Shown: in pieces, positions 33,090 to 56,518 of the stretch
Layout: the number at the start of each line of letters is the position of its first letter
Numbering within the stretch: position 1 is the first letter of the stretch
NCBI GenBank assembly: GCA_001799845.1
Contig: MGUG01000044.1
Span: forward strand, 64,020 to 128,019
Length of the DNA stretch: 64,000 bases
Source of the DNA: Elusimicrobia bacterium GWC2_64_44
GTDB taxonomy: Bacteria > Elusimicrobiota > Elusimicrobia > Elusimicrobiales > UBA9959
Direction of reading: 5' to 3'
The notes under the pieces: generated by a model
Told to the model about the DNA's origin: nothing
What the model saw: the letters and a program-made list of their open reading frames with translations, nothing else
Database searches by the model: none
Translations under genes and position numbers: made by a program

Positions 33090-36000
33090 ATGACCTTAAA
33101 AGCGACCCCGCTTAAACTCCTGCTGCTCCTGGCCTGCGCCCGGGGCGCCTTCGCGGCCGATTTCGCGGCGCCCGCGCCCGCCGGCGGGCGCTTCCTGCTG
33201 CTGGACCGGCAGGACCCCTCCAGGGTGCTGTCCGCCGCGGAAGTCTCCACGGCGGCCGCCAGCGGGACCCAGGACGGGCTATCGGGCGATATGCCTTTTC
33301 AGTACAGCGGCGACGCCTGGAACGAGGCGCGCGAGGCGGTGGAGACCGGCCGCTTCAGGCGCGAGGAACTGGTCCCGCCGGCCCGGGTGGAGGTCTCCAC
33401 CGAGGCCCCCGCCGCCCCGGAGCCGCAGGTGGAGTTCCGCGAGTCCGGCACCACCCTCTCCGTCACCGGCCGCAAGGTGATCGCCCTCAACTACAGCGGC
33501 AAAAAATTCATAAACGAGCAGACCTCCGTCACGCGCGCCCGCTCGCTTAGCCTCTTCGAGATCACGCAGCAGATGCAGGTGCGCATGCAGGGCAAGGTGG
33601 GCCAGAAAATAACCGTCAACGTAGACTACGACGACACCAAGCAGGACAAGCAGGACATCTCGGTGGTCTACACCGGCGACCCCAACGAGGTGGTGCAGAA
33701 CGTGTCGTTCGGCGACATCGACCTGTCGCTGCCGGCCACCGAGTTCGTTTCCTACAACAAGCAGCTCTTCGGCATCAGGGCGGACCTGAAGACGCAGCGC
33801 CTGAAGTTCACGTTCGTCGGCTCGCGCACCAAGGGCCAGACCAAGACGCGCCAGTTCACCGGCAACACGCAATTCCAGGGCGCGGACATCCTGGACATCA
33901 ACTACCTGCGCCGCAAGTATTACGACGTCACCTTCGGCAACGTGTCGCGCCTGCCCATAAAGTCCGGCACGGAGCGTATCTACATAGACCAGCAGACCCT
34001 GGCGCAGGTGGACAATGTCACCGTCTTCGAGCTGGTAGCCAAAGACATGGCGGTGCAGACCTCCACCTACACCGGCCGCTTCCAGCTGCTGAGCCCCGGC
34101 ATAGACTACGTGATGGATTACTCCAAGGGCCTCGTGACCTTCAACCGCACGCTGAACCCGCAGGACGTGGTGATCATCGACTTCCAGAACTTCGGCGGGA
34201 CCAACCTCTCCCAGAACAATTCCACTGATACGCTGACGGGGCTTAATACCCTGGCGGCCCTCGTCGCCCCGGCCATCATCAAGACGCCCAGCGACATAGC
34301 CCTTTCCTCCGTCGCCGCCACCATAGCAGCCCTGGACTCCCACCGCCACGAACTCAAGACCTATTATTCCATCGGCCAGACCAACCTGGTCCGGGACAAC
34401 GGCAACGGCAACTTCATACTCAGGGTCCAGGACCTCAACCGCACCGAGGTCTCGGTGGCCGGCTACAACCCCGCGGACTCCAACCCGCCGGTCAAATACC
34501 CCGACACCATAGAGGTGGATTTCGAGCAGGGCATCTTCCGCCTCAAGAACCCCTTCCTCGACCCCGACACCTCCTCCCCCAGGCCCGACGACCAGGTCTA
34601 CTCGGCCGCGCCGGCGTCCAAGCGCGTCCTCCGGGTGGAGTATTCCTTCCGCTTCAAGACCTTCCTGCTCGAGCCCAACATCGTGCTGCAGTCCGAAGTC
34701 GTGCGCGTGGACGGCAAGAAGCTGGGCCGCAACGAGGAATACTTCATCGACTACGACTCCGGCTTCATCACGTTCTACTACCCGGAGCGCGTCGGGCAGG
34801 ACTCCAAGATAGAGATAGTCTACGAGGTCTCGCCGTTCGGCGGGGTGGGCAACCAGTCGCTGGTCGGCGGGCGCATCTCCTACGACTTCGGCAGCCACTT
34901 CTCGCTGGGCTCCACGATGCTCTACCAGGGCGGCATCAAGTCCAACACGGTGCCCAACGTCACAGACCTGACCAACAGCATGCTGGTCTACGAAGGCGAC
35001 GCGCAATTGAAGGGCCTGAATATCTTCGGCCTCAAGACCAGCCTGGGCGCCGAGGCCGCGCAGAGCCGCCTGAACCCCAACCTAAACGATTACGCGCTGA
35101 TAGACAACATGGAAGGCGTAAAGCAGGAAGATTCGCCGTCGATGGACAAGAATTACTGGTTTATAGCGGCCAACCCCGTGCAGGCCCCGGCCGACCCGCT
35201 GGCGCTGGACTGGTACAACGAGAACATCAAAGCCCGCGACATCAACCCCGCGGCCAGCTCCGAAGGGACCCAGCAGGTGCTGTCCTTCCATTACGATTTC
35301 ACCGTCTCGCCCGAGGTCTCGATCGTTTACCCCCTCTCCCCCACCGGCCTGGACTTCTCCCAGAAGAACGTGCTGGAACTGGTGGTTTACGGCGACAACT
35401 CCCTGGCCGCGCCCGGTCCGCGCTTCAACATCCACCTGGGCCAGATAACCGAGGACGCGGACAATTCCGGCGGGCAGAACTTCTCCTGCGCCTCGGGCCT
35501 GGTCATACCCAACGCGCCCAAGAGCGAGGACCTCAACTGCGACGAGCAGGTGGCCGCCGCCGAGGACATAGGCTGGCTCTACGATCCCGGCACCGCCAAC
35601 ACCAAACGCTACGGCGCGGCCAACGGGCGGCTGGACTCCGAGGACCTCAACAAGAACGGGCGCCTTGACGTGCAGGACTTCACCGGCGGCAGCCTGGGCT
35701 ACGTCAACGGCGCGCTGTTCACCGATACCTCCGACAACACGGCCAAGAACACCGTGGACTTCAGCGGCTGGCGCACGCTCTACCTGCCGCTGGGCATCAC
35801 CTCCACCGACACCTACAAGTGGAACGCCATCAAGCAGGTGCGCATCTCGCTGAAGCAGGCCGCTGGCGCCGGCGCGGCGACTTCCGGCACCATCAAGTTC
35901 GCGCGCATCTCAGCCGTGGGCAACACCTGGACCGTGCAGTCCTCCACCGCCGGTTCCATGCAGGCCATCGGCGTCAACAACCACGACAACCCAGGCTACG

Positions 36001-38465
36001 CGCCCATCTACGAAGCCGGCGGAGAAGCTACGATAGTTTTCAACAACCTCTACGGCTCCGTGTCGGAACAGAAGCAGAAGAACAACTCCGCCTCGGTCAC
36101 CGAGCAGACCCTGGCCCTGGACTACGCCGCCATTTACTCCACCTCCACGGTCTACGTCTACCGCAAGTTCTCCACCGCGCTGGACGTCTCGCAGCACGAG
36201 AAGCTGCGCTTCCTGGTCAAGAGCGAGGGTGGCCCGCAGGCCGGCGCCGCCTTCTACCTGAAAGCCGGCGACGTGAACAACCATTTCAAGGCCTCGGTCC
36301 CGCTGGACTTCACCGGCTGGCGCCTGATCACGGTGCGCCAGGTGGATATCACCGGCGACAAGATCCCCGACGTCTGGGCCCCCGAAACCTCCGGCGTCAC
36401 GGTCTCCTCGGTCGGCACCCCCAGCCTGCAGCAGGTGCCGCAGTTCCTGGCCGGCGTAGAGGCCACGGACGCCGGCGGCCACAGCGGCACGGTCTATTTC
36501 AACGAGCTGCACCTCTCCGAGCCCCTGATGCGCGTCGGCAACGCCCGCAAGGTGGAGGGCGCCTTCGAGATACCCGGCTGGATGAGCTTCGGCGGCAAGC
36601 ACCGCTTCGTGGACCGCAGTTTCCAGACCCCGGTGACGGCCATCGCCAACCAGGACAACGAATCGCAGTCGGGGTACCTCAACATCACGCGCCTCGCGTT
36701 CTTCCCGGTCAACGTCACGGCCGCACGCCAGATCACGGTCACGCCCAATACGCTGGCTACCGGCGCCAACAACCTGGTCAACTCGCTGCAGCAGGGCCGC
36801 GTAAAGAAGTTCGACGGCACGGCCTCGGGCACCCTCGGCATCGGCGCGCTGCCCAAGGTGGGGCTTAACTACACCAAGGGCCTGACGGACTACAGCCTGC
36901 TCAGCCGCAAGGACGACCGGAACCTCTACGCCGCCAACATGACCTACTCGGTGCCGGGCACGCTGCCCGTGCTGCCGCGCTCGCTGAACCTGAACTACTC
37001 GCTCGGCAGCAGCAAGGTGGCCTACGACCCCTCGCGGCTGACCGCCGCCGGGCAGGCCGGGCTCTACGACACCAAGGAGCGCACGGACGCCTACGGGGCC
37101 AAGCTGACCTTCATCCCGTGGAACGGGTCCTCGTTCAACCCGGGCTACTCGCTTCAGACCGCCCGCGAGGAGCGCGCGCCGGTGGCGGACCCCCTGCGCT
37201 CGGAACGCTACAACAAGTCGCTGCAGCAGACGGTGGACTTCAACTCCAACCTGCTCTTCGCCCGCTGGTTCAATCCGTCGTTCAGCTACTCCGTCACCAC
37301 GCTGGAAAGCAACAACCTCAACACCACCACTGTCACGGTGGCGCAGTCCTCGCAGGTGTTCACGGCCGGCCAGATCAAGACGGTTAACCGCACGGCGCAG
37401 GGCGGCGTTTCGCTGACCATCAACGTCAACGATCTGGCGCCGCGAAACAAGCTGCTGCGCTCCATGGTGCTGTCCTCCAATTACCAGATCCAGGACGGCG
37501 ACGCGTGGGCCAACGTGGAGAAGGACTACAACACGCGCAACAAGCTCTGGCTCAGGGACTCCATGGACCCCGCCAGCCGCTTCGCGCAGCGCAACTCCGT
37601 GACGCTGCGCGACACCTTCAGCTCCTCGCAGCGCTGGCAGCCGTTCGAGGGCTTCGGCTTCAAGGGCAACGCGGCGCCGCTGGGCACGCTGTCGCTGACA
37701 AACAATTTCTCCAACTCGGTGCAGCGCTCCGAGGTGACCGGCACTATCTCCAAGAGCGTCAACCGCACCTTCCCCGACATGATCCTGTCGATGTCGCAGC
37801 TGGAGGGGCTGCTGCGCGCGCGCCGCTGGGCGCAGGCGGCCACGATCAACCTCAAGTACTCGCGCAACACCAACGAGGCCAAGACGGTCTCGCTCGACAC
37901 GTCCGGCACCTACGGCATGGACCTGCGCTTCAAGCTGCTGAACCTCGTGGACACGGCCTTCAGCTACAACCTGCGCCTTACGGACAAGAAGGACCTGCGC
38001 GTCAACCAGGTCACGCAGCGCACGCGGCACGACGACGCCACGCTGCAGGGCACCTTCGACGTGCGCAAGTTCCGCCTCACTCCCAAGGCCGACTACTCCT
38101 CGGACAAGACACGCGGCGCGCTGGGCGTGATGACCGCCAACACCCGCACTATAACCCCCAGCCTGCTGATCAAGTCAGACTTCCAGCTGCCCAAGGGCCT
38201 TAAGCTGCCGTTCATGAAGCAGGCCATCGTCTTCACGAACCGCATCGTCTGGACCACGACGCTCAGCTACGCGCTCAAGTCCTCGCCGATCACCATAGCG
38301 GAGAACAGCCGCCTGTTCTCGCTGAACTCCAGCGCGGACTACGAGGCCGCCAAGAACCTGCGCCTGACCTTTAACGGCGGGCTGCAGCGCTACTGGCACA
38401 AGTACCTCAAGCAGGAAGAGTACCTGTCCTACCAGGCAGGCAGCACGCTGACGTTCCAGTTCTAG
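33090..38465 (+). CDS. sprA: SprA-like giant outer-membrane translocon protein (type IX secretion)
   Basis: A 1791-residue protein with a signal peptide (MTLKATPLKLLLLLACARGAFA); the ATG at 33090 is preferred to a TTG three codons earlier. Its features match the SprA/Sov family: an N-terminal region with FEITQQMQVRMQGKVGQKI and FGDIDLSLP (about 155-260), LFGIRADLKTQRLKFTF, repeats of the form YVMDYSKGLVTFN (near 338) and YFIDYDSGFITFYYP (near 549), and ALIDNMEG (near 668), comparable to the IDDFEG block of Bacteroidota SprA. Many beta-strands follow and the chain ends in phenylalanine. SprA is the 36-strand outer-membrane conduit of type IX secretion. At 1791 residues it is shorter than typical SprA (about 2400). 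Confidence 0.8.
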   Translation: MTLKATPLKLLLLLACARGAFAADFAAPAPAGGRFLLLDRQDPSRVLSAAEVSTAAASGTQDGLSGDMPFQYSGDAWNEAREAVETGRFRREELVPPARVEVSTEAPAAPEPQVEFRESGTTLSVTGRKVIALNYSGKKFINEQTSVTRARSLSLFEITQQMQVRMQGKVGQKITVNVDYDDTKQDKQDISVVYTGDPNEVVQNVSFGDIDLSLPATEFVSYNKQLFGIRADLKTQRLKFTFVGSRTKGQTKTRQFTGNTQFQGADILDINYLRRKYYDVTFGNVSRLPIKSGTERIYIDQQTLAQVDNVTVFELVAKDMAVQTSTYTGRFQLLSPGIDYVMDYSKGLVTFNRTLNPQDVVIIDFQNFGGTNLSQNNSTDTLTGLNTLAALVAPAIIKTPSDIALSSVAATIAALDSHRHELKTYYSIGQTNLVRDNGNGNFILRVQDLNRTEVSVAGYNPADSNPPVKYPDTIEVDFEQGIFRLKNPFLDPDTSSPRPDDQVYSAAPASKRVLRVEYSFRFKTFLLEPNIVLQSEVVRVDGKKLGRNEEYFIDYDSGFITFYYPERVGQDSKIEIVYEVSPFGGVGNQSLVGGRISYDFGSHFSLGSTMLYQGGIKSNTVPNVTDLTNSMLVYEGDAQLKGLNIFGLKTSLGAEAAQSRLNPNLNDYALIDNMEGVKQEDSPSMDKNYWFIAANPVQAPADPLALDWYNENIKARDINPAASSEGTQQVLSFHYDFTVSPEVSIVYPLSPTGLDFSQKNVLELVVYGDNSLAAPGPRFNIHLGQITEDADNSGGQNFSCASGLVIPNAPKSEDLNCDEQVAAAEDIGWLYDPGTANTKRYGAANGRLDSEDLNKNGRLDVQDFTGGSLGYVNGALFTDTSDNTAKNTVDFSGWRTLYLPLGITSTDTYKWNAIKQVRISLKQAAGAGAATSGTIKFARISAVGNTWTVQSSTAGSMQAIGVNNHDNPGYAPIYEAGGEATIVFNNLYGSVSEQKQKNNSASVTEQTLALDYAAIYSTSTVYVYRKFSTALDVSQHEKLRFLVKSEGGPQAGAAFYLKAGDVNNHFKASVPLDFTGWRLITVRQVDITGDKIPDVWAPETSGVTVSSVGTPSLQQVPQFLAGVEATDAGGHSGTVYFNELHLSEPLMRVGNARKVEGAFEIPGWMSFGGKHRFVDRSFQTPVTAIANQDNESQSGYLNITRLAFFPVNVTAARQITVTPNTLATGANNLVNSLQQGRVKKFDGTASGTLGIGALPKVGLNYTKGLTDYSLLSRKDDRNLYAANMTYSVPGTLPVLPRSLNLNYSLGSSKVAYDPSRLTAAGQAGLYDTKERTDAYGAKLTFIPWNGSSFNPGYSLQTAREERAPVADPLRSERYNKSLQQTVDFNSNLLFARWFNPSFSYSVTTLESNNLNTTTVTVAQSSQVFTAGQIKTVNRTAQGGVSLTINVNDLAPRNKLLRSMVLSSNYQIQDGDAWANVEKDYNTRNKLWLRDSMDPASRFAQRNSVTLRDTFSSSQRWQPFEGFGFKGNAAPLGTLSLTNNFSNSVQRSEVTGTISKSVNRTFPDMILSMSQLEGLLRARRWAQAATINLKYSRNTNEAKTVSLDTSGTYGMDLRFKLLNLVDTAFSYNLRLTDKKDLRVNQVTQRTRHDDATLQGTFDVRKFRLTPKADYSSDKTRGALGVMTANTRTITPSLLIKSDFQLPKGLKLPFMKQAIVFTNRIVWTTTLSYALKSSPITIAENSRLFSLNSSADYEAAKNLRLTFNGGLQRYWHKYLKQEEYLSYQAGSTLTFQF

Positions 38466-44882: not shown

Positions 44883-47800
44883 CTACTTGAAAACGCCTCC
44901 GACGGCGTCGGAGAAATTGCCAGCCGCCGTGCCGGTGGACACCACTATCTTCTTGGGCGAGCAGTTGGAGCAGTAATACGCTTCGCCTTCGACTAGCGGC
45001 ACCAGCGCCTGCAGCTGGAGCAGGGTCCTTGAAGGCAGGCGCAGCTTCCCGGCCATCACCGTGCCTTCGAACTCGTTTATGGAATTGACGCCCCTGGACA
45101 CTATGTTGCGGGACGTCCCGGCCCCTGAAACGCTCTGGTCCGCGATGTACAGGGCCGTGTTCGTCTGTATGGTGCCGCCGGTGAAGGCGGGCGTATCTAT
45201 GTACACACCGTAATTGTTCTTGACTATCCCGGCGCTCTGGGTATTCTGCACGAAAACGCCATAGGAGGAATTAATAGTACCGGGGCCCTGCGCCAGCGCC
45301 GTAGCCCGCACGCCCAGCACCTTCGGGAAATTCAGGGCTGCCGGAGTAGTGCCGGCTATGAAATCGCCGCCTATGACCATTTCAACTCCGCTCCTGTTCG
45401 TCTCCGGGTTCACAAGGACCAGCACCCCCACGCCCTCGTTAGGGAAGTCAGTGGCTATGTCCTGGTTCTCCACCATGTGCATCACCATCGAGACCACATT
45501 CGGAGAAGGCCCGGCCATGCTGCCCGCCGCGATGCGAGAGCTGACCGCCACGGTATTGACGTTGGTGATCCCGAAGTCGCCCATGTCGAAATCCTCCAGG
45601 GCCGGGTTGGACACGCTGCCTACCGCGGCCGAGATGCCGGTCAGCTGGGAGCCGTCGCCGAAGAACTTTTCGGCGTGGATCTCGCCGCCGCTGTTCATGG
45701 TTATCAGGTTGACGAAACCCGTAGACACGACCACCATGTTGCCGGCGTACCCGGCACCTGACGAGACATGGAGGACGCCCAGCGGCAGTTCCGTGCCCAC
45801 CAGCAGCGGGCCCTGCCTGAACATGCCCGCGCCCGCCGACAGCACGCTGCCTCCCACGTAGAGCGTGGTGGAGAAGGCTATGCCCGGCTCGCCCGGCGCC
45901 GCGGTAATGGTGGAAGCGTTGATCAGCTTGAAATCCGCCAGGTTGAAGTCCTGCGTAGCCGTATGCGGGAAGTTCCTGAGCTGGGAGCCGTCGGCGTAAA
46001 GCACGCCGGCCACGGTCATGGAGGCCTGTACCACCCCGATCTCGTCGCGCCAGAGCTGCACGGCCGGGTCGCCCAGGGAAGCCTGCACGTCCAGGGCCGC
46101 CTCGCCGGCTACCAGCCCGATGGCCGCGCTGCTGAGGTTGTGGAGGTACCTCCCCCCGGCGTCGGGGCCGGCGGCCAGCGTTGCCGCCAGTGTATCAACA
46201 ACGTTGCCGCTGCCGCCGCCGCGCAGGCCGGAGGACTCGGCGTAGATCACGCCGGCCGCCGTCATAGAGGCCTGTATCACTCCGGCGGAGTTGCGCCAGA
46301 TCTGCACGAAGCTGTCCCCGGTCACTCCCCGCATGTCCAGCGCGGCTTCGCCCGCTGCCTGGCCGAAAGCGGCGCTGCTGAGGTTATTGATATAGGTTCC
46401 GCCCGCGTCATGCCCTGCGGTCAGGGTGTCCGCCAGGGTATCGATAACGTTGCCGGAGGGCAGGTTGCGCAGCTGAGCGGCGTCGGCGTAAAGCTCGCCG
46501 GCCGCGGTCATGGAGGCCTGCACCACCCCGAAAGCGTCGCGCCAGATCTGCACCACCGGGGCGCCGAACTGGGGTTTGGCGTCCAGGGCGGCCTCGCCGG
46601 CCACGTGACCTATGGCCGCGCTACTGAGGTTGGTGATATAGTTGTTGCCCGCGTCGCTCCCGGCGGCCAGCGTGGCCGCCAGCGTGTCGATCACGTTGCC
46701 GGAAGGCAGGTTGCGCAGCTGCGAGGCGTCGGCATAGAGTTCGCCGGTCACGCTCATGGAAGCCACGATCGTGCCGCCGGAGTTGCGCCAGAACTGCGAG
46801 TAGTTCCCCGCGCCGGCCTGCACGTCCAGCCGCGTGCCCGGGGTGCCGTGGCCTATGGCCACGTCGCCCAGGTTGACGATGCCCGAGGTCGCGGCGTTGT
46901 TGCCGGCGCCGAGGGTCTCGGAAAGGGTATCGATGAGGTTGCCGGTGCCGCTGCCGGTCTGGTCCGCGGTGCACAGCAGATTGCCGCTCACGTCGACAGT
47001 AAGCTTGTCGAAGCCCGAACAGGCGAAGTTGGTGAACTTCATGCCGCTGGTCAGGGTGCTGGCGTCCGCGTCGTTGACCTCCAGCCGCGCCGTAGCCGGG
47101 TTGATCCCGACGCCTACCCCGCCGGTGGCGTTGAGGGAAATGCCGGAATTGCCGCCGTCGTTGGACAGCCAGTACGAGCCGACCGTCAAATTGTCCTCCA
47201 TGATATGGGTGCCGAGGCTGTCGGCGCCGGAGGGCGGCAGGTTGCGCAGCCCGGAAGCGTCGCCGTAAAGCACGCCGGTCGCGCTCATCGAGGCCACGAT
47301 AGTGCCGCCTGAATTGCGCCAGAACTGCGTATAACTCCCGGCGCCAGCCTGCACGTCGAGGCTGGTGCCCGCGGAAGCCCGTCTAACGGCCACGTCGCCG
47401 AGGTTCAGCACACCGAGTCCCCCGGCGTTATTGCCTGCGCCGAGCGTCTCCGAGAGGCTGTCGATGAGGTTGCCGGTGCCGCTGCCCAGCTGGTCGGCCG
47501 AGCAGACCAGGTTGCCGCTCACGTCCACGGTGAGCTTCTGCGTGCTCAAGCAGGTAAAATTAGTGAAGCGCATGCCGCTGGTGTTCACATCGGCGTCGCT
47601 GTCGTTGACTTCCAGCCTGGCCGTGGCCGGGTTGACGCCGATCCCCACGCCGCCGGAGGGGTTCACCGAGACGCCCTCGCTATTGCCGTCGCTGGAGAGA
47701 TAGTAATTCCCGAGGCGCACGTTCTGCCCGGCGGTATGGTTGCCCAGGTTGTCGGAAGCGGGCAAGTTGCGTATGCCGGCCGCGTCGGCGTAAAGCTCGC

Positions 47801-50800
47801 CGGTCACGCTCATGGACGCCACTATGGCGCCGCCCGAGTTGCGCCAGAGCTGCACATAGGGAGCCGCGCCGGCCTGAACGTCCAGCCTGGCGCCTGCTGC
47901 GCCCAGGCCCAAAGCCACGTCTCCCAGGTTGACCATGCCAGCGGCGCCGGCGTTATTGCCGGCGCTGAGGGTCTCAGAAAGAGTATCTATGAGGTTGCCG
48001 GTGCCGCTTCCGGTCTGGTCCGCCGAGCACAACAGGTTGCCGCTCACGTCGACCGTAAGTTTCTCAAAGCCCGAGCAGGCGAAGTTGGTGAACTTCATGC
48101 CGCTCGTGCCGGAATTAGCGTCGGCGTCGTTAACCTCGAAGCGCGCCGTAGCCGGGTTCACCCCGACGCCCACGCCGCCGCCGGAGTTGACGGAAACGCC
48201 TTCGGCGTCGCCGTCGCCGGACAGGTAGAACGCCCCGAGGCGCAGGCGCTGGGAGGCGTTGTGATCGCCCAGGTTATCAGCCGCGGGCAAGCCGCGCATG
48301 CCGGCCGCGCTGGCGTAAAGCACGCCGGTCGCGCTCATGGACGCCACCACCGTGCCGCCGGAGTCGCGCCAGAACTGGGAGTAGCCGCCCGCGCCGGTCT
48401 GCACGTCCAGCCGCGTTTCGGCCAGCCCCAGGCCTATGGCCACGTTGCCCAGGTTCACCATGCCCGCGGCGCCCGCGTTATTGCCGGCCCCGAGGGTCTC
48501 GGACAGGCTGTCGATAATGTTCCCCGTGCCGCTGCCGGTCTGGTCGGACGAGCAGACCAAATTGCCGCTCACGTCGGCGGTAAGCTTCTCGGTGCCGGAG
48601 CAGGCGAAATTGGCGAACTTGATGCCGCTGGTGTTGACGTCGGCGTCGCTGTCGTCCACTTCAAGCCGCGCAGTGGGCGGGTTGACGCCTATGCCCACGT
48701 CGCCGGCAGCACTGACGGAAATGCCGGCGTTGCCGCCGTCGCCTGACAGCCAGTAGGGCCCGACGGAGAGGTTCTGCCCCATTACGTGGCTGCCCAGGTT
48801 ATCCGCCGTGGGCAGACCGCGCAGGCCCGCCGCGTTGGCGTAAAGCACGCCGGTCACGCTCATCGAAGCCACGATGGTGCCGCCGGAATTGCGCCAGAAC
48901 TGAGCGTAGTTACCGGCGCCGGCCTGCACGTCCAGCCGCGTGCCGGCGGTACCCAGGCCCAGGGCCAGGTCGCCCAGGTTCACCATGCCTACGGCCCCGG
49001 CGTTATTTCCGGCCCCCAGGGTTTCGGATAGATCGTCGATGATGTTGCCGGTGCCGCTGCCGGTCTGGTCCGCAGAGCAGAGGATGTTGCCGCTGACGTC
49101 GACGGTCAGTTTCTGCGTGCCGGTGCAGGCGAAGTTAGTGAACTTCATGCCGCTGGTGACGGTATTAGCGTCGGCGTCGTTGACTTCCAGCCTGGCCGTG
49201 GCCGGGTAAACGCCCACGCCCACGCCGCCGTCCGAGTTCACGGAAACGCCTTCGGCGCCGCCGTCGCCTGACAGATAGAAAGTCCCTAGCCGCAGGTTCT
49301 GGCCCGCGGTATGGTTGCCGAAGTTATCCGCGGCGGGGAGGCCGCGCATTCCGGAGGCGTCGGCGTAAAGCACGCCGGTGGCGCTCATGGACGCCACCAC
49401 CGTGCCGCCGGAGCTGCGCCAGAACTGCGAGTAACTGCCCGCGCCAGCCTGCACGTCCAGCCGCGTGCCGGCCGCGCCCAGGCCTATGGCCACGTTGCCC
49501 AGGTTCACCATGCCTACGGCGCCGGCGTTATTGCCTACGCCCAGGGTTTCGGAGAGGCTGTCGATGATATTGCCGGAACCGCTGCCGGTCTGGTCCGCAG
49601 AGCAGACCAGGTTGCCGCTCAGGTCCGCGGTCAGCTTCTGCGTGCCGGTGCAGGCGAAATTAGTAAATCGCACGCCGCTGGTATTGGCGTCGGCGTCGTC
49701 GTCGTTGACTTCCAGGCGCGCGCCGGGAGGATTGACGCCGATGCCGACCTGGCCCGCGGAGTTCACGGACAAGCCGGAGGGCCCGCCGTCGCTGGACAGC
49801 CAGTTGGAACCGGCGGCCAGGTTCTGCGTCAGCACATGGTCGCCCATGTTGTCGGAGGCGGGCAGGCCGCGGATGCCGGCCGCGTCGGCGTAAAGAACGC
49901 CGGTCGCGCTCATGGAGGCCACCACCGTACCGCCCGAGTCGCGCCAGAACTGGGAGTAGCCGCCGCCGTTGGCCTGCACGTCCAGCCTGGTGCCGGCCGC
50001 GCCTATGCCTATGGCCACGCCGCCCAGGTTCACCATCGACGCGCCCCCTGCGTTATTGCCGGCGCCGAGCGTTTCGGTAAGGGTGTCGATAAGGTTGCCG
50101 GTGCCGCTGCCGGTCTGGTCCGCAGAGCAGACCAGGTTGCCGCTCACGTCGACCGTGAGCTTGTCGAAGCCCGCGCAGACGAAATCAGTGAATTTCATAC
50201 CGCTGGTGGCGGTGTCGGCGTCTCCGTCGTTGACCTCGAACCGTGCCGTGGCGGGGTAAACCCCGACGCCTACGCCGCCGGTGGCGTTCACCGAAACGCC
50301 TTCGCTGCCGCCGTCGCCGGAAAGGTAATAGGTCCCGAGGCGCAGGTTCTGCCCCGCAGTATGGTTGCCAAAATTATCCGCGGCAGGGAGGCCGCGCAGG
50401 CCGGCAGCGTCGGCGTAAAGCACGCCCGTGACGCTCATGGAGGCGACCAGGGTGCCCCCCGAGTTGCGCCAGAACTGCGCGTAGCTGCCGGCGCCCGCCT
50501 GCACGTCCAACCGCGTGCCGGCCGCGCCCAGGCCTATGGCCACGTTCCCCAGGTTCACCATCCCGGCGGTGCCGGCGTTGCTGCCGGCGCCCAGCGTGGC
50601 GGCCAAGGTGTCCACCACGTTGCTCGTCACCCCGCTGAGGGCGGAGCCGTCGCCGTAATACCTGGCCCCGGCAGGCAGGAAGACGTTGGAGGAGATATAA
50701 ACTCCGCCGTACGAGGACGGCCCCGTGGAGGAGATCTCCACTCCGGGCCGCAGCTGCACGCGCCCGGCGCCCAGGCCAAGGGCGCCGGCCACCGTGGCGC

Positions 50801-51617
50801 TGGAATAGGTAGTGAGCGCCCCGTTGGCGGTTATGGCCCCGGCGTTAGCCACCGGAAAACCTGCCATCTGCAGCGTGGTGGTGGCCACGTGGTTGCCCAG
50901 ATGGTCGGCGCCGGGAGGGATATTGCGGATGCCGGCAGCGTCGGCGTAGAGCACGCCGGAGGCCGTCATCGAGGCGACCACCGTGCCGGACTCGTTGCGC
51001 CAGAACTGGGAATAGGTGGCGTCCGCGGCCTGCACGTCGAGCTTCGTCTGCGGGGAAACGACGCCCAGGCCGGCGCTGCCGGCGAAGGTCGTGTGAGCCG
51101 GGTTAGACATCACGGCCCAGCCGGACGCGTAATACTGCGCCGTGCCGTCGGGGAAGACCAGGCCGTCGCTGCCGGGGGCGCCTATCAGGCGCAGGTCCCC
51201 GCCGTTAACGGTAAAGGTGCCGGTGGAGCTTTCGGCCGTGACCGCGTGCAGCGAATAGACCGAGGAAAAGAAGGGCTCCGGGGGCAGCCAGAGGCCGTCC
51301 ACGCGCATCTGCACGAAGGGGGTGATATCCTTCCAGTTGAGGGCGGCGAACTGGGCGTCGTTCGGCGTGCCCAGCGGATAGCGGAAGAGGCCGGTGGAAA
51401 CCACCACGTCGGTGGAACCGGAGTTCCAGTATTCCACGGAGGCGTCGGCGTTGATCAGGCGGAACTCCATGGAGGCCGTGCCGCTGAAGAGCCGCCCGTC
51501 CTTGCGGAGCGTGCCCTGGTAGCTGACCCGCCCTGGCGAAGCCGCGAAAGCGCAGTGCGCCGCCGCCAGCATGATTGTAAGCGCGGCTAACGCCGCGCGG
51601 CCGTATCTTAGGTTCAC
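44883..51617 (-). CDS. Giant modular repeat protein, secreted (2244 residues)
   Basis: The GTG start at 51617 follows AGGTGA. A signal peptide (about 1-25, ending HCAFA) leads to a ~110-residue N-terminal domain (RVSYQGTLRKDGRLF, SVEYWNSGS, TGLFRYPLGTP). The bulk is tandem modules: seven of about 175 residues marked by NLVCSADQTGSG and GTRLDVQAG, then three shorter units of about 80 residues (NVIDTLAATL...QLRNLPS). Sequence resembles phage tail-fibre-type beta-helical stalks. The ~90-residue C-terminus (KLRLPSRTLLQLQALVP, YYCSNCSPKKIVVSTG) is distinct and lacks an obvious membrane anchor or type IX sorting signal. It is the last gene of the operon that starts with the sorting-domain protein and PorV. 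It is likely a surface-displayed adhesin or fibre. Confidence 0.72.
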   Translation of the reverse strand: MNLRYGRAALAALTIMLAAAHCAFAASPGRVSYQGTLRKDGRLFSGTASMEFRLINADASVEYWNSGSTDVVVSTGLFRYPLGTPNDAQFAALNWKDITPFVQMRVDGLWLPPEPFFSSVYSLHAVTAESSTGTFTVNGGDLRLIGAPGSDGLVFPDGTAQYYASGWAVMSNPAHTTFAGSAGLGVVSPQTKLDVQAADATYSQFWRNESGTVVASMTASGVLYADAAGIRNIPPGADHLGNHVATTTLQMAGFPVANAGAITANGALTTYSSATVAGALGLGAGRVQLRPGVEISSTGPSSYGGVYISSNVFLPAGARYYGDGSALSGVTSNVVDTLAATLGAGSNAGTAGMVNLGNVAIGLGAAGTRLDVQAGAGSYAQFWRNSGGTLVASMSVTGVLYADAAGLRGLPAADNFGNHTAGQNLRLGTYYLSGDGGSEGVSVNATGGVGVGVYPATARFEVNDGDADTATSGMKFTDFVCAGFDKLTVDVSGNLVCSADQTGSGTGNLIDTLTETLGAGNNAGGASMVNLGGVAIGIGAAGTRLDVQANGGGYSQFWRDSGGTVVASMSATGVLYADAAGIRGLPASDNMGDHVLTQNLAAGSNWLSSDGGPSGLSVNSAGQVGIGVNPPGARLEVNDDDADANTSGVRFTNFACTGTQKLTADLSGNLVCSADQTGSGSGNIIDSLSETLGVGNNAGAVGMVNLGNVAIGLGAAGTRLDVQAGAGSYSQFWRSSGGTVVASMSATGVLYADASGMRGLPAADNFGNHTAGQNLRLGTFYLSGDGGAEGVSVNSDGGVGVGVYPATARLEVNDADANTVTSGMKFTNFACTGTQKLTVDVSGNILCSADQTGSGTGNIIDDLSETLGAGNNAGAVGMVNLGDLALGLGTAGTRLDVQAGAGNYAQFWRNSGGTIVASMSVTGVLYANAAGLRGLPTADNLGSHVMGQNLSVGPYWLSGDGGNAGISVSAAGDVGIGVNPPTARLEVDDSDADVNTSGIKFANFACSGTEKLTADVSGNLVCSSDQTGSGTGNIIDSLSETLGAGNNAGAAGMVNLGNVAIGLGLAETRLDVQTGAGGYSQFWRDSGGTVVASMSATGVLYASAAGMRGLPAADNLGDHNASQRLRLGAFYLSGDGDAEGVSVNSGGGVGVGVNPATARFEVNDADANSGTSGMKFTNFACSGFEKLTVDVSGNLLCSADQTGSGTGNLIDTLSETLSAGNNAGAAGMVNLGDVALGLGAAGARLDVQAGAAPYVQLWRNSGGAIVASMSVTGELYADAAGIRNLPASDNLGNHTAGQNVRLGNYYLSSDGNSEGVSVNPSGGVGIGVNPATARLEVNDSDADVNTSGMRFTNFTCLSTQKLTVDVSGNLVCSADQLGSGTGNLIDSLSETLGAGNNAGGLGVLNLGDVAVRRASAGTSLDVQAGAGSYTQFWRNSGGTIVASMSATGVLYGDASGLRNLPPSGADSLGTHIMEDNLTVGSYWLSNDGGNSGISLNATGGVGVGINPATARLEVNDADASTLTSGMKFTNFACSGFDKLTVDVSGNLLCTADQTGSGTGNLIDTLSETLGAGNNAATSGIVNLGDVAIGHGTPGTRLDVQAGAGNYSQFWRNSGGTIVASMSVTGELYADASQLRNLPSGNVIDTLAATLAAGSDAGNNYITNLSSAAIGHVAGEAALDAKPQFGAPVVQIWRDAFGVVQASMTAAGELYADAAQLRNLPSGNVIDTLADTLTAGHDAGGTYINNLSSAAFGQAAGEAALDMRGVTGDSFVQIWRNSAGVIQASMTAAGVIYAESSGLRGGGSGNVVDTLAATLAAGPDAGGRYLHNLSSAAIGLVAGEAALDVQASLGDPAVQLWRDEIGVVQASMTVAGVLYADGSQLRNFPHTATQDFNLADFKLINASTITAAPGEPGIAFSTTLYVGGSVLSAGAGMFRQGPLLVGTELPLGVLHVSSGAGYAGNMVVVSTGFVNLITMNSGGEIHAEKFFGDGSQLTGISAAVGSVSNPALEDFDMGDFGITNVNTVAVSSRIAAGSMAGPSPNVVSMVMHMVENQDIATDFPNEGVGVLVLVNPETNRSGVEMVIGGDFIAGTTPAALNFPKVLGVRATALAQGPGTINSSYGVFVQNTQSAGIVKNNYGVYIDTPAFTGGTIQTNTALYIADQSVSGAGTSRNIVSRGVNSINEFEGTVMAGKLRLPSRTLLQLQALVPLVEGEAYYCSNCSPKKIVVSTGTAAGNFSDAVGGVFK
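46960..50116 (-). repeat. Tandem 525-bp coding repeats in the giant protein gene
   Basis: The word TGGTC before the conserved cysteine codon recurs at 46960, 47491, 48016, 48541, 49066, 49591 and 50116: intervals of 531 and then five of exactly 525 bases (175 codons). The copies are highly similar at the DNA level, while loops between them vary. Coordinates give the anchor positions; each unit extends about 525 bases around its anchor. Three shorter units of about 240 bases precede them at 46190-46900. Confidence 0.9.
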
Positions 51618-51621
51618 AAGC

Positions 51622-52443
51622 TCACCTCGTCTCGCTCTCGGCGGCCGCCCTGCCGCGGGCCAGGCCTTTGTAGTAAAGCGCTTCTTCGTTCGCCTTGTCG
51701 AAGGCGAGTACCGCGTCGAAATTCTTCCCGGCTTCCGCCCAGCGGCGCCGCCTGAAAAGCGCCAGGCCCGCCGCCATGTTCTCCTGCTGCCTGGTCACTT
51801 CTTCCTCGAGCCGCTTCAGCTTGTCAGCCCGCCGCAGCTCCCGCTCTGCCACCCGGCTCATGGTGCCGCCGCCGGTTGCGGACTGCTGGGCGGCCGACCG
51901 GGCGAACTGCAGCGAGGCCAGCATCCTGGAATCCGCCGTGGTGCGGCCCTCGGCCAGGTAGGGGTAGGCCTTCTTGATCGTCGCGTAAAAAATGCCCCGT
52001 ATCTTCTCGCCGGACTTCCGCAGCAGCTCGCCGGTATCGGAATAGACCGGAAAATCGGACAGCAGCCGCTCGTACTCGTCCACCGCGCGCCTCACGGTGG
52101 CGGCGCCGGAGGCCAGGGAGCAGGCCCTGGAAAAGTCGTCCTCCCATTCGTTCACCCGTTCGGCCTTGGCCGCCCTCAGCGCGGCCAGTTTGGCGTAGTC
52201 CTTTTCGGCCGCGGCCATGAGTTTCGCCCGCTCGGCCTCGGCGTCGGCCTTCTCCGCCGCCGCCGCGCGGCCTACGGAAGACTCCAGCGCCACCTTGGCC
52301 GCGTCACTGGCGGGGTTGGCCAGGACCCGGTCTATCTGCCGCACCAGTTCGGCCCGCTCCGCCGCCGCGCCTGCCTCGGCCGACAGCGCGGCCGGCGCCA
52401 GGAGCAGCGCCGACAGCGCCGCGGCGTGAGCGGCGCCGCGCAT
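51622..52443 (-). CDS. Exported coiled-coil / TPR-like protein
   Basis: A 273-residue protein with a signal peptide (MRGAAHAAALSALLLAPAALS). Residues about 25-130 are alanine/glutamate-rich and predicted helical coiled coil; a helical middle follows (SGEKIRGIFYATIKKAYPYL), and the last ~60 residues match a TPR unit (AAGLALFRRRRWAEAGKNFDAVLAFDKANEEALYYKGLA). It starts within the stop of PorV (TAATG) and lies four bases from the giant protein. A periplasmic accessory role in export or display of that protein is inferred from position only. Confidence 0.68.
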   Translation of the reverse strand: MRGAAHAAALSALLLAPAALSAEAGAAAERAELVRQIDRVLANPASDAAKVALESSVGRAAAAEKADAEAERAKLMAAAEKDYAKLAALRAAKAERVNEWEDDFSRACSLASGAATVRRAVDEYERLLSDFPVYSDTGELLRKSGEKIRGIFYATIKKAYPYLAEGRTTADSRMLASLQFARSAAQQSATGGGTMSRVAERELRRADKLKRLEEEVTRQQENMAAGLALFRRRRWAEAGKNFDAVLAFDKANEEALYYKGLARGRAAAESETR

Positions 52444-53579
52444 TATCTGGAATCTCCCACCAGGGCCCGGGCCTTGCGCAGCAGGTCCAGCGCTTCCCGG
52501 CTGCCGGGGTCCAGCTGCAGCGCTCCGTTAAGTTCCAGCACCGCCTCGTAATAGCGGCTTTCCTTCATCAGCGTGCGCGCGAACTCCGTCTTCTGGCGCG
52601 CCTGCTCCTGCTCCAGCGACAGGTGCTGCGTTACCGCCACCGGCTTGTCGAATTTGTAGGAGAGGCTGAACCGGTGCGCCGGGCCGAACTTGCCGTAGGA
52701 AGAAAGCGAATAGTCGAACTGCAGCAGTTTCAGCGCCACGCCGCCGCCCAGCCTGAAGCCGCCGCCCAGGTCCTGCCCGGACAGGTAGCCGGCCCGCACC
52801 GACAGCATGCGCCAGACCTGGTATTCCGCGCCGGCGCCCCATGCCGAAGCCGAGTACTCCGGCTTCTTCACGTCCGCGGTAAGGGTTATCGGGTCGCCGG
52901 CCACGACGAAGATGAAAGAAGCTCCGGCCCGGTAGACCGACGGGGCCGGGTCCGTCTCTGTATCGAACTTGAAGCCGCCGCCCACCGACTGCGCCGACAG
53001 GCCGAGCGCCAGCGTGCCGAGGCTGTTGCGCTGTATCCAGAGCGCGCCGGCGTCGGCGAGCGCCGCGCCAGCGGCCACCCCGTCGAGCCTTTCGCGGGCG
53101 TATTTGAGGGTGGCCCCGGCGAAGAGGCCGGAGCGCGCGTCCTGCCACGGTCCGGTCACGCGGGCCGCGTAGCTGAGGCCGGCCGCCAGGTCCCCGGCGT
53201 CCACCTGCCCCGCGGCGGCGCCGGAATTGTTATAGCCGTCTATCGAGGGCACGCTCAGCACCAGCAGCGAGGCGGCCGCGACGCCGTATTTCAGCGGGTG
53301 CGCGTAGGCGGCCTGCTGGGAGGCTATCCCCTCGAGCCAGGAATTGTAGGTGAAGGCCGCTTCCTTGTAGGGGGTGCGGGCCAGCGCGGCCGGGTTCAGC
53401 GAGAGAGCGCCGAGCAGGTCGCCGTAAGCGCCCGCTCCGGTCTCGCCCATGGCTACCGCCCTCGGGCTCTGCAGGATGCGGAGGAACTCCCCGCCGGCCT
53501 TGCCGGCGCCGGAGGCCGCGGCGGCCGGCAGCGGCCGCAGGGCGAATAAGAGCAGGAGCAGGCCGGTGGTCCTCGTCAT
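52443..53579 (-). CDS. porV: PorV/PorQ-family outer-membrane barrel with C-terminal TPR unit
   Basis: A 378-residue protein with signal peptide (MTRTTGLLLLLFALRPLPAAAA). The barrel starts with FLRILQSPRAVAMGETGAGAYGD, followed by SLNPAALAR, AFTYNSWLEGIASQQAAYAHP and LAAGLSYAARVTG, the signature of the PorV/UPF0164 family, a FadL-like barrel. In type IX secretion PorV binds SprA and shuttles cargo to the surface attachment complex. The last ~55 residues (FARTLMKESRYYEAVLELNGALQLDPGS) form a TPR unit absent from standard PorV. It overlaps the upstream gene by ATGA and the downstream gene by one base. PorV-like paralogues with other roles exist, so the system assignment is inferred. Confidence 0.82.
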   Translation of the reverse strand: MTRTTGLLLLLFALRPLPAAAASGAGKAGGEFLRILQSPRAVAMGETGAGAYGDLLGALSLNPAALARTPYKEAAFTYNSWLEGIASQQAAYAHPLKYGVAAASLLVLSVPSIDGYNNSGAAAGQVDAGDLAAGLSYAARVTGPWQDARSGLFAGATLKYARERLDGVAAGAALADAGALWIQRNSLGTLALGLSAQSVGGGFKFDTETDPAPSVYRAGASFIFVVAGDPITLTADVKKPEYSASAWGAGAEYQVWRMLSVRAGYLSGQDLGGGFRLGGGVALKLLQFDYSLSSYGKFGPAHRFSLSYKFDKPVAVTQHLSLEQEQARQKTEFARTLMKESRYYEAVLELNGALQLDPGSREALDLLRKARALVGDSR

Positions 53580-54928
53580 TTTATCACCACCAGCTTGCCG
53601 GTCTTGCGGGCCTTATCGGCGGCTATCTCCCACAGGTAGACGCCGCTGGCCACGGTCTGGCCGTTGGAATTCTTCAGGTCCCATTTAAGCGACGGAGGAA
53701 CCACAGCGAGTTCCCGCACCAGGTCGCCGGCCACGGTGTAGATGCGGATGCGCCCGTAGGCCGGCAGGTTCGTGAAGGTGATGCCCTGCGCCCAGGTGCC
53801 GTACCGGGCCGGGTCCCCGCCGCCGGGCCGGAACGGCACCGGGTAGGCGTAGACAGGGGTCAGGTCGGCGTCGCTGACGGCCAGCAGCGCGTAGTTGGAA
53901 AAATGCGTGACCGTCTGGGAAACGGTCCGTGCCCCGGCGTTGAGCTGCGAGCCCGCCTGCTTATCCCAGAGCCCGCGCGCCTCGTCGAGGTGCCAGACGG
54001 AGAGGCCGGAGACTTTCTGCCTGGAGAGCGAGCCGTCGATGATCCCGTCCCCGTCCTCGTCCGGGTAGGGCAGCGTCACCACGCAGGCGGCGCCGGGCTG
54101 CACCAGGTTGCCGGCCGAGTCGTAGGGCTTCACGCTGACCGTGTTTACGAATTCCGGAGCTCCGGGCTGCCCCCGCATCCGGGTATTCGCGGCCGACACG
54201 GCGGGCAGCGCGGCGTCCGTGGAAAGCTTGACGTAGAAATCCTGCGCGTAGGCGTTGGCCGGGATGGAGACCCGCACGCGCCGGTCGGAGACGGCCAGGG
54301 CCGTGTTGTCCGCCGCATGGTCCATGATCACGGAGAAATACACCGTTGCCGCCGGGGAGACCGGCGAGCCGTTGACGTCTACCAGCGAAGAAGAGAACGC
54401 GACGGAGAACACGCTGCCCTTGGGCCAGGAGGAGTCCGGGACCACCACCAGCTTCTGCCCGGAATAGCTGACGGTCACGGCCCAGGTGGAGTTGACGAGC
54501 GCCCCGGTATTGTCGTAGAGCTGCGTCACGCCGACCGCGGGATTGGAGAGGGCCGGAGAAAGCTCCTCGCCGAAAACCAGGTTCACGTTCTCGCCAGGGG
54601 TCATGCCCACCAGCGTGCCTTCCATGGACGCCGCCGCCGTGGAGGTGAAGGCGGCGAGGCCCGGGTTCACCACCTCAGCCGGCACGAGCGAGAGGTAGCC
54701 GGACCAGACGCCGGAGGGAGCGTTGGCTAGCTCGGCCGGGCTGGCGCAGTCGTCGCCGACGGTGTAGGAGAGCTCGTAGGCGCCGGTGGAGGCGCGCACC
54801 ACGGCCAGCGGGGCGCCTGAATCGCGGATCTTTTCCCAGGCGCAGCGGGCGGGCTGCGGCAGCAGGGCGGCGGCCGCGGCCGCGAGCAACAGGGCTTTTT
54901 TCAGGCGTATAAGTGTGGTAAAGGGCAT
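53576..54928 (-). CDS. Exported protein with type IX-like C-terminal sorting domain
   Basis: A 450-residue protein. The ATG at 54928 gives a signal peptide (MPFTTLIRLKKALLLAAAAAALL) and lies downstream of a TATAAT that overlaps earlier in-frame codons. The middle has bacterial Ig-like segments (VNLVFGEELSPALSNPAV, SYSGQKLVVVPDSSWPKG). The last 90 residues run YPVPFRPG, ITFTNLPAYGRIRIYTVAGDLVREL, SGVYLWEI and end GKLVVIK, the pattern of type A sorting domains and of the related FlgD-type Ig fold. The protein is first in the operon with PorV, so it may be its cargo. A FlgD-like structural role cannot be excluded. Confidence 0.75.
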   Translation of the reverse strand: MPFTTLIRLKKALLLAAAAAALLPQPARCAWEKIRDSGAPLAVVRASTGAYELSYTVGDDCASPAELANAPSGVWSGYLSLVPAEVVNPGLAAFTSTAAASMEGTLVGMTPGENVNLVFGEELSPALSNPAVGVTQLYDNTGALVNSTWAVTVSYSGQKLVVVPDSSWPKGSVFSVAFSSSLVDVNGSPVSPAATVYFSVIMDHAADNTALAVSDRRVRVSIPANAYAQDFYVKLSTDAALPAVSAANTRMRGQPGAPEFVNTVSVKPYDSAGNLVQPGAACVVTLPYPDEDGDGIIDGSLSRQKVSGLSVWHLDEARGLWDKQAGSQLNAGARTVSQTVTHFSNYALLAVSDADLTPVYAYPVPFRPGGGDPARYGTWAQGITFTNLPAYGRIRIYTVAGDLVRELAVVPPSLKWDLKNSNGQTVASGVYLWEIAADKARKTGKLVVIK

Positions 54929-54964
54929 AGCGGGGCGGGCGCGCACGCGGCCTGCCATCATTGT

Positions 54965-54970
54965 ATTATA
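54965..54970 (-). promoter_or_regulatory. -10 hexamer for the PorV operon
   Basis: Minus-strand TATAAT, 36 bases upstream of the chosen ATG at 54928, in a short AT-rich island between the lipoprotein gene and the sorting-domain gene. It suggests that the operon 54928 to 44883 has its own start. No -35 match was seen. Confidence 0.45.
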
Positions 54971-55030
54971 TAACACGCAAAGGTAAACGGGTAGGTTATA
55001 TCGGATACACTTACCACATGTTACAGCGGC

Positions 55031-56518
55031 TCATTTAGCGGCCGCCGGCAGGTTTTCGGCCGCCTGCCGTGAGAAGACCCCGGCCTCGTAGGCCAGCGGC
55101 TTGTTCCTGACGCGCTCCACCAGGCCTTTGGCCAGCTGCCCGGCCAGCCCCCCGAGCAGGCTCTTGGGCGTCTTTACCCGCACCACGCTTTCGCCGAAAG
55201 AGAGCTCTTTTTCTCCCGGAGCCCAGACGCGAAAACCGCCCTTCACCATGCGCCGGTTATACACGCCGGCCATGATCTCGCCGTAATCGGTGATCTCGCC
55301 GAAAACCAGCCGGCCTGCGCCCAGCCAGCTTGCGAGGTCCTCGGGCCTGGCCGCGCCGAGCTGCCCGCCGTCGCCGAAGCCGCGCCGCCGCAGGCGCTCG
55401 TCGGTCTCTTCGAGCGGCAGCAGGGAGTAGCCGGCCTCCTTCAACTGCGCGAAGACCAGCTGCCGCGCGAGGACGGGGCCGTCGATGCTGGTCGTATCGT
55501 CGGAGAAGGGCAGCAGGGCCGTCTTCACCTCGAACCAGCTAAAGTCGCATTTGCGCTCCTCCGGCAGGGCGCGCGCCCTTTCCAGGTCCCTGTAGATCTC
55601 CTCCCAGCGCACGGGCTTGGCCGCCTTGTCGCCGGCTGCCAGCGCCTGCGCCCGCCGGTAGGCCTCTTCGGCGGCGGCGTAATCCCTGCCCACCTCGGCG
55701 GCCACCGCGAGTCCCAGCTGGTCGCGCCAGCCGCCCTCAGGCAGGCGGGCCCGCCACACGGCGGAGGCCTCCTCCCAGCGCCCGTTCCAGGCCAGGTCCG
55801 CGGCTTTCTCAGACTCCTCGTCTTTTTTTACCGCGAAGACAGGGCGCAACCGTTCCACTACGCGCCCGGCATACCGGTCGGCGAGCCGCTCGGCCACCTT
55901 GGCAAAGATCTTCTCCTCGTTATCCGCGTACCAGTCGGGCTCCTCTTTGGACTTGTCAAAACGGTCCTCCGAAACGGTGAAAACCTCGGCCCAGGAATCC
56001 AGCACGGCCTCTCCGGGCCAGGCCAGCAAATGCACCTGGGCCGGCAGCGCGGCGCTGTACGCCCAGACCTTGCTCTTGACGGTCTGCTTCTGCTTCTTCC
56101 TGTCGTACTGCACCGCCGAGCGCTCCTCCATCTTACGAGAGACGGCGGGCGAGCCCAGGGTCAGCACCAGCAGGCCGGAAGGGTTGAGCCGGTCCGCGAA
56201 ATCCGAGGGCCCGCCCGCGCCTTTCTCGACGCGCCATGCGCAGAGCCTGGAGCCCGGCTGCCTGAGCGCCTTGGCGGCGCGGCGCGCCAGCGCCTGGAAA
56301 TTCATGTCCGGCCCGTTACGCCCCAGCAGCGCGCCGGCCAGCGACGAGAGTTCCCCCTCCTCCGCCCGCGGCGGCGGCTTTATCACCAGGTACAGCGCGC
56401 CCAGCGCCGGCCGCGAAGCGGCCTGCGCGGCGGGCAGCCGGTGCTTGACTCTGACGGAGGTGTATCCGCCGCAGCCGGCCAGCGCGGCCAGCGGCAGCAG
56501 CAGGAAGAGTTTTTTCAT
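55031..56518 (-). CDS. Lipoprotein with GNA1162/DUF799-like C-terminal domain
   Basis: A 495-residue lipoprotein: signal peptide with lipobox LAALAGC, lipidated Cys16. Residues 30-240 are not recognised. A helical TPR-like part follows (AADLAWNGRWEEASAVWRARLP, EEAYRRAQALAAGDK). The C-terminal ~150 residues (LLPFSDDTTSIDGPVLARQL, GFGDGGQLGAARPEDLASWL, GRLVFGEITDYGE) match the GNA1162/DUF799 fold related to the TolB/CsgG-N periplasmic group. It is likely in the inner leaflet of the outer membrane and may assist assembly or secretion. It overlaps the gene upstream by ATGA. Confidence 0.75.
   Translation of the reverse strand: MKKLFLLLPLAALAGCGGYTSVRVKHRLPAAQAASRPALGALYLVIKPPPRAEEGELSSLAGALLGRNGPDMNFQALARRAAKALRQPGSRLCAWRVEKGAGGPSDFADRLNPSGLLVLTLGSPAVSRKMEERSAVQYDRKKQKQTVKSKVWAYSAALPAQVHLLAWPGEAVLDSWAEVFTVSEDRFDKSKEEPDWYADNEEKIFAKVAERLADRYAGRVVERLRPVFAVKKDEESEKAADLAWNGRWEEASAVWRARLPEGGWRDQLGLAVAAEVGRDYAAAEEAYRRAQALAAGDKAAKPVRWEEIYRDLERARALPEERKCDFSWFEVKTALLPFSDDTTSIDGPVLARQLVFAQLKEAGYSLLPLEETDERLRRRGFGDGGQLGAARPEDLASWLGAGRLVFGEITDYGEIMAGVYNRRMVKGGFRVWAPGEKELSFGESVVRVKTPKSLLGGLAGQLAKGLVERVRNKPLAYEAGVFSRQAAENLPAAAK

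Follow-up and report, generated by a model that had tools for sequence, protein, structure and literature searches.

In Flavobacterium johnsoniae, all type-A substrates of the type IX secretion system (T9SS) share a single PorV (PMC12618676). Substrates with a type-B C-terminal sorting domain (CTD) need an SprF barrel encoded directly downstream, and a type-B substrate is thought to remain attached to its SprF barrel; such cognate substrate/shuttle pairs of type-B CTDs and SprF are experimentally established (PMC12618676, PMC9143113). A 2024 paper describes T9SS genes as restricted to the FCB superphylum (PMC11285876). Our literature search found no paper with T9SS in Elusimicrobiota as its topic, and none using "multiple PorV" or "lack a CTD" in a T9SS context. 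Here, we analyzed a window of 64,000 nt on contig C44 of an uncultured Elusimicrobiales species (genome of 3.09 Mb in 60 contigs), in which a block of four genes suggests that fibres are placed on the cell surface by a new T9SS variant.

On the minus strand of the window, four genes follow each other in the order sorting-domain protein, PorV/PorQ-family barrel, coiled-coil protein, and fibre, with junctions of a 4-nt overlap, a 1-nt overlap, and a 4-nt gap; the ORF coordinates thus confirm the initial annotation, which had described the genes as overlapping or nearly touching. The sorting-domain protein, with signal peptide, beta domains, and CTD, is encoded at 53576..54928 (ATG start, 450 aa) or up to 54976 (GTG start, 466 aa). 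It is followed by a 378-aa outer-membrane barrel with a TPR-like C-terminal extension (52443..53579), a secreted coiled-coil/TPR-like protein of 273 aa (51622..52443), and a giant fibre-like protein of 2244 aa without a CTD of its own (44883..51617). Signal-peptide-like N-termini were read from the sequence on all four proteins. A consensus scan together with the sequence predicts a promoter-like site ahead of the operon (54960..54987, minus strand), which, with its TATAAT, overlaps the GTG at 54976; because this upstream GTG sits within the promoter-like stretch, the ATG at 54928, which is also where the initial annotation ended its interval, is the likelier start of the sorting protein gene. 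Upstream of the cassette lie two overlapping genes (55031-57480), encoding a 495-aa GNA1162-like lipoprotein and a 321-aa secreted-type protein, which we consider neighbours and not members because they are retained in two genomes where the cassette is missing (G013 and G014).

The four genes belong together as one cassette. Eight of 15 congeneric genomes have them in the same order and with near-zero spacing (G003, G005, G006, G007, G009, G010, G012, and G015), and a scan of one genome per species revealed the cassette order in six further species, one of which reaches a contig end before the fibre, so that the order is conserved in 14 other species overall. In G013 and G014, which keep the two upstream genes, nothing of the cassette is left between the lipoprotein gene and rlmD, and G001, G008, and G011 lack the two upstream genes as well as the cassette; G002 and G004, with a contig end on the relevant side of SprA, were not counted as absences. 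No partial cassette was seen in these 15 genomes. The conserved order and the presence or absence as a block indicate that the four genes are a real unit, as the reading of the locus as a single operon had proposed, and the synteny survey shows more conservation than expected by chance. Nearly all close matches of the cassette come from Elusimicrobia MAGs, and its closest named relative is "Elusimicrobiales bacterium STC_50", with 91% identity in the sorting protein.

An SprA-like translocon gene is located on the plus strand at 33090..38465, separated from the fibre gene by 6.4 kb that contain conserved unrelated genes, in agreement with the distance of about 6 kb reported at first. Its product matches TIGR04189 with 128 bits (E 1.4e-37), below the cut-off of 200. 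Compared with the reference family model, it is shorter by about 500 residues, yet still significantly related; it gave no sequence match in the PDB, even by profile. The gene occurs once per genome in 26 of 26 genomes, including ten of the sister family that have no fibre N-terminal domain, and seven orthologues are 71-85% identical to the protein of the window. As SprA stays in place where the cassette is missing, its proximity to the cassette is synteny, and SprA is a shared translocon, not an operon member. We therefore rejected SprA as an operon partner, SprA being universal and the cassette not, and the initial idea of one compact system including SprA is not supported. Among type IX components, we recognized the SprA/Sov translocon gene (below cut-off), PorV-family shuttles, and substrates with signal peptide and CTD. 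GldM_1st gave no match in this 90%-complete genome, in a search that ran without a T9SS-bearing control genome, and PorU C25 gave none either, but the control genomes also gave none, which leaves its absence unproven. No genome was found that keeps the giant protein and lacks both PorV and SprA, the observation that the initial annotation had named as contradicting it.

The sorting protein consists of a signal peptide, Big_5-like and other beta domains, and a C-terminal domain of T9SS type (YPVPF...GKLVVIK; 53579..53863, minus strand). This C-terminus shows weak matches of the FlgD_ig, TIGR04183 (Por_Secre_tail-like), and PorZ types: FlgD_ig is the best Pfam match, under its cut-off, and TIGR04183 scores 19.8 bits without reaching the cut-off of 23. 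A profile built from nine orthologues matched no PDB protein other than PorZ, where the match lies in the C-terminal domain (5m11, E 7.6e-6). AlphaFold models were made for window proteins and for proteins of related loci; the model of the sorting protein has a mean pLDDT of 75, rising to about 90 across the last 100 residues, and when it was compared with the PDB, PorZ ranked first and PorU fourth, although full-length TM-scores were low and only the ranking and the profile match were used. Together with its position at the extreme C-terminus and the adjoining PorV-family genes, the PorZ match supports the original assignment of a T9SS-type CTD. Orthologues of the sorting protein are 57-73% identical, and their end RKTGKLVVIK is invariant in all nine aligned proteins.

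The 378-aa barrel, first annotated as PorV, reached 114 bits with the NCBIfam model PorV_fam NF033709 (cut-off 90) and stayed far under the equivalog cut-offs for PorV (44 of 250) and PorQ (72 of 220). PorV/PorQ family is therefore the correct name: membership of the family stands, whereas PorV proper does not. Against the PDB, the barrel profile found F. johnsoniae PorV in its SprA-bound form (6h3i, E 5.9e-7), and, at the barrel C-terminus, a designed TPR protein. No Pfam or NCBIfam family matches the 273-aa protein, leaving its TPR label unconfirmed by this route; its orthologue is present in every cassette of the close group, with 40-51% identity.

The giant protein has a modular architecture on the minus strand: a conserved N-terminal domain (YQGxLR; 51138..51548, alignments A1 and A9), the proposed base; a shaft of eight repeats of 175-177 aa, recognized by the spacing of anchor motifs (46800..51011), continued by shorter repeats of 82 aa (45816..46799); and a C-terminal tip (YYCSNC...VVSTGTA...GGxF; 44886..45170) that is replaced in orthologues. 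The first 130 residues or so are 61-94% identical within the close group. Copies of the N-terminal domain number 5-11 in each of the 16 genomes of the genus and zero in the ten sister-family genomes, and no PDB structure matched its beta-rich model with confidence (best E 0.05). The tips of 14 giants fall into YYC-C-VSTGT (7), FGE-sulfatase-like (5; PF03781 in the three tested, the other two assigned by similarity), and CLxC (2) types. Between L165 and L166, identity is 93% for the sorting protein, 94% for the barrel, and 89% for the coiled-coil protein, and the fibre ends are unrelated. Pfam and NCBIfam searches detected no CTD or known export domain in the giant, consistent with the early remark that it has no obvious sorting domain. 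Matches of the giant to NCBIfam PRK15267 and Pfam Chlorovi_GP_rpt lie in its repeats and score far below or barely at the cut-off; they were set aside.

Since orthologues carry unrelated ends, L165/L166 included, the end of the giant is not a common export signal. The initial annotation had left two options, a new signal at the C-terminus of the giant or the small sorting-domain protein as the anchor. Unrelated domains stand in place of the supposed signal in orthologues, and we reject this option; with its constant RKTGKLVVIK end set against the unrelated ends of the giants, the sorting protein is favoured, but not proven, as the better candidate for carrier or anchor. A second arrangement was observed on contig C54 (L051:8280-13124, G000:C54), where the gene of a 177-aa CTD protein is followed after 9 nt by that of a 1433-aa fibre, whose YYCSNC-type tip is shared with the giant of the window; this pair has no adjacent PorV, and such pairs recur in several congeners.

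The locus is not one of a kind; it is part of a genome-wide pattern. Six-frame profile searches, on which all genome counts rest, detected about 24 PorV-family genes and about 26 CTD ORFs in the genome, mostly paired; PorV-family matches number 19-42 in congeners and 2-6 in the sister family. A CTD gene lies directly upstream of 17 of the 24 PorV genes, and for 18 of 27 CTD matches a PorV match starts less than 1.5 kb downstream on the same strand. The CTD profile (A3) was built mostly from PorV-adjacent CTDs and is partly circular; Pfam FlgD_ig served as the independent check, with a downstream PorV match for 10 of its 15 matches (chance below 1e-18), three of the 15 sitting at contig starts. 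All seven fibre genes of the genome adjoin a CTD gene or, for C57:35592, share a cluster with one. Of 74 fibre genes in 11 genomes, 61 are preceded by a same-strand CTD gene at a distance of up to 4.5 kb (chance about 2%), which shrinks to 210 nt or less in about half of the cases, and two more have CTD and PorV genes downstream instead. Most of the remaining fibre genes are cut by contig ends; no CTD neighbour was found in L120, L138, and L151, despite their assembled neighbourhoods. Pairs of a CTD gene and, directly after it, a PorV-family gene, with no fibre, were also observed in other Elusimicrobia (L168 and L169), in an Opitutaceae MAG (L170), and in a Hydrogenedentota MAG (L172); barring MAG contamination, the CTD-PorV pair may thus be wider than the phylum. 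In addition, CTD matches at G000:C35:22432 and G000:C31:21838 lie in open frames of 13,463 and 8,440 codons, hinting at extremely large exported proteins.

We propose, as a reading that is somewhat better than an even bet, that the cassette is a self-contained module that displays a surface fibre and belongs to a type-IX-like secretion pathway. The module was observed to have a defined gene content and a conserved order, to be present or absent as a whole, to show CTD and PorV homologies, and to exchange its fibre tip; from this we infer the following steps. All four proteins would reach the periplasm by Sec. The sorting protein would then exit via the shared SprA translocon by means of its CTD, and its own PorV-family barrel would collect and hold it, by analogy with SprF and type-B cargo, the TPR-like tail of the barrel and the 273-aa protein possibly forming a periplasmic foot. 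Finally, the CTD-less fibre would be exported or anchored in partnership with the sorting protein, with the N-terminal domain as base, the 175-aa and 82-aa repeats as shaft, and the C-terminal domain as exposed binding tip. That a CTD protein carries or anchors the fibre is suggested by the linkage of the genes and by a fibre whose base is conserved and whose tip varies. Counting against the proposal are the missing GldM match, the SprA and CTD scores under curated cut-offs, the fibre/CTD pairs that have no PorV beside them, as on C54, and the three fibre genes L120, L138, and L151 for which no CTD neighbour was found.

The main alternative accepts the CTD protein and PorV as a real export pair and places the fibre elsewhere, in the periplasm or on another outer-membrane route, with its gene co-located for co-expression. 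The fibre's want of a CTD or known export domain and the occurrence of CTD-PorV pairs without any fibre, including the distant L168, L169, L170, and L172, would fit such an arrangement, which is nevertheless rather unlikely in our view, given that several fibre classes repeatedly adjoin a CTD gene (upstream of 61 of 74) and that tips differing between close relatives suit an exposed surface. The same tips bear on the idea that the giant itself is the cargo and its C-terminus a new T9SS-type signal. No other protein of the operon is as large as the giant, and a second fibre of the genome carries the YYC-NC end as well; however, orthologues in the same cassette end in FGE-sulfatase-like or CLxC domains, and the ends are completely different in a close pair whose CTD and PorV proteins are 93-94% identical, making this reading highly improbable.

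Two further explanations were considered. The idea that the CTD is merely an Ig fold of FlgD type, without T9SS-like export, is favoured by FlgD_ig as best Pfam match, and by the scores of both this match and SprA, which are below cut-off; only the Ig-like C-terminus resembles FlgD, however, in a context of PorV and fibre genes and not of a flagellar hook, PorZ is the only PDB profile match, the domain sits at the extreme C-terminus of large secreted-type proteins beside PorV-family genes, and an SprA relative is present in all 26 genomes. We judge this improbable. Modular repeats and swapped tips also recall the tail fibres of a phage or tailocin, caught here beside a secretion operon, and the tip of one orthologue matches a tail protein, PHROG 11262. 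The fibre nevertheless has a Sec-type signal peptide, no phage genes were recognized around it, and its N-domain has no relative in phage records or viral contigs; a phage origin, the least probable of these readings, was rejected for want of viral or phage relatives of the N-domain.

Beyond the preferred reading of a display module, a PorV-family gene was observed within a few genes of a FliG_C protein at five loci of this genome, L036:2019-7466 (G000:C7), L041:4762-11170 (C5), L050:4661-10738 (C54), L053:3371-10904 (C35), and L057:9414-14663 (C30). These FliG_C proteins usually also contain FliG_M and FliF C-terminal domains, a MotA_ExbB gene is present at four of the five loci, and OmpA/MotB genes were confirmed at two. 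Every one of the 16 genomes of the genus has FliG_C, whereas the ten genomes of the sister family have none. Possibly, a flagellar-type motor serves surface proteins. A broader and distinctly speculative idea is a two-partner type IX branch, in which CTD carriers with their own PorV-family shuttles display CTD-less fibres, powered by FliG/MotA-type motors and not by GldLM.

In summary, a repertoire of SprA, PorV, and CTD proteins is present throughout a genus of Elusimicrobiota, mostly with a PorV-family gene beside each sorting-domain gene and not with one PorV for all. If this pairing reflects dedicated shuttles, the cognate-shuttle principle known for SprF also applies to the PorV family; if the fibre travels in trans, proteins that have no CTD can be exported by this pathway, and the prediction of its substrates would change.

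Compared with known systems, the locus resembles the type-B CTD/SprF arrangement (SprB-SprF), in which the CTD gene is directly followed by a FadL-like barrel gene, with many cognate pairs per genome; some type-B operons also contain an extra periplasmic anchor gene (PorE-like), to which the 273-aa protein may correspond. Unlike type-B, the barrel partner is of the PorV/PorQ and not of the PorP/SprF family, no PorP/SprF model being listed among its matches, the giant adhesin-like protein carries no CTD and is a polypeptide of its own, and the host, unlike Flavobacterium, is outside the FCB superphylum. With the type-A system of Porphyromonas gingivalis and F. johnsoniae (Sov/SprA, PorV, PorU, and PorZ), it shares an SprA relative, a PorV relative, and a PorZ-related CTD, but it differs by about 24 PorV paralogues, mostly beside individual CTD genes. 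The fibre is built like phage tail fibres and modular repeat adhesins, with conserved base, repetitive shaft, and exchangeable receptor-like tip, and differs from phage tail fibres in its signal peptide, its chromosomal secretion cassette, and its lack of phage relatives. What is new here is the combination of PorV-family partners with a CTD-less fibre, which would be exported in trans, in a genome-wide pairing.
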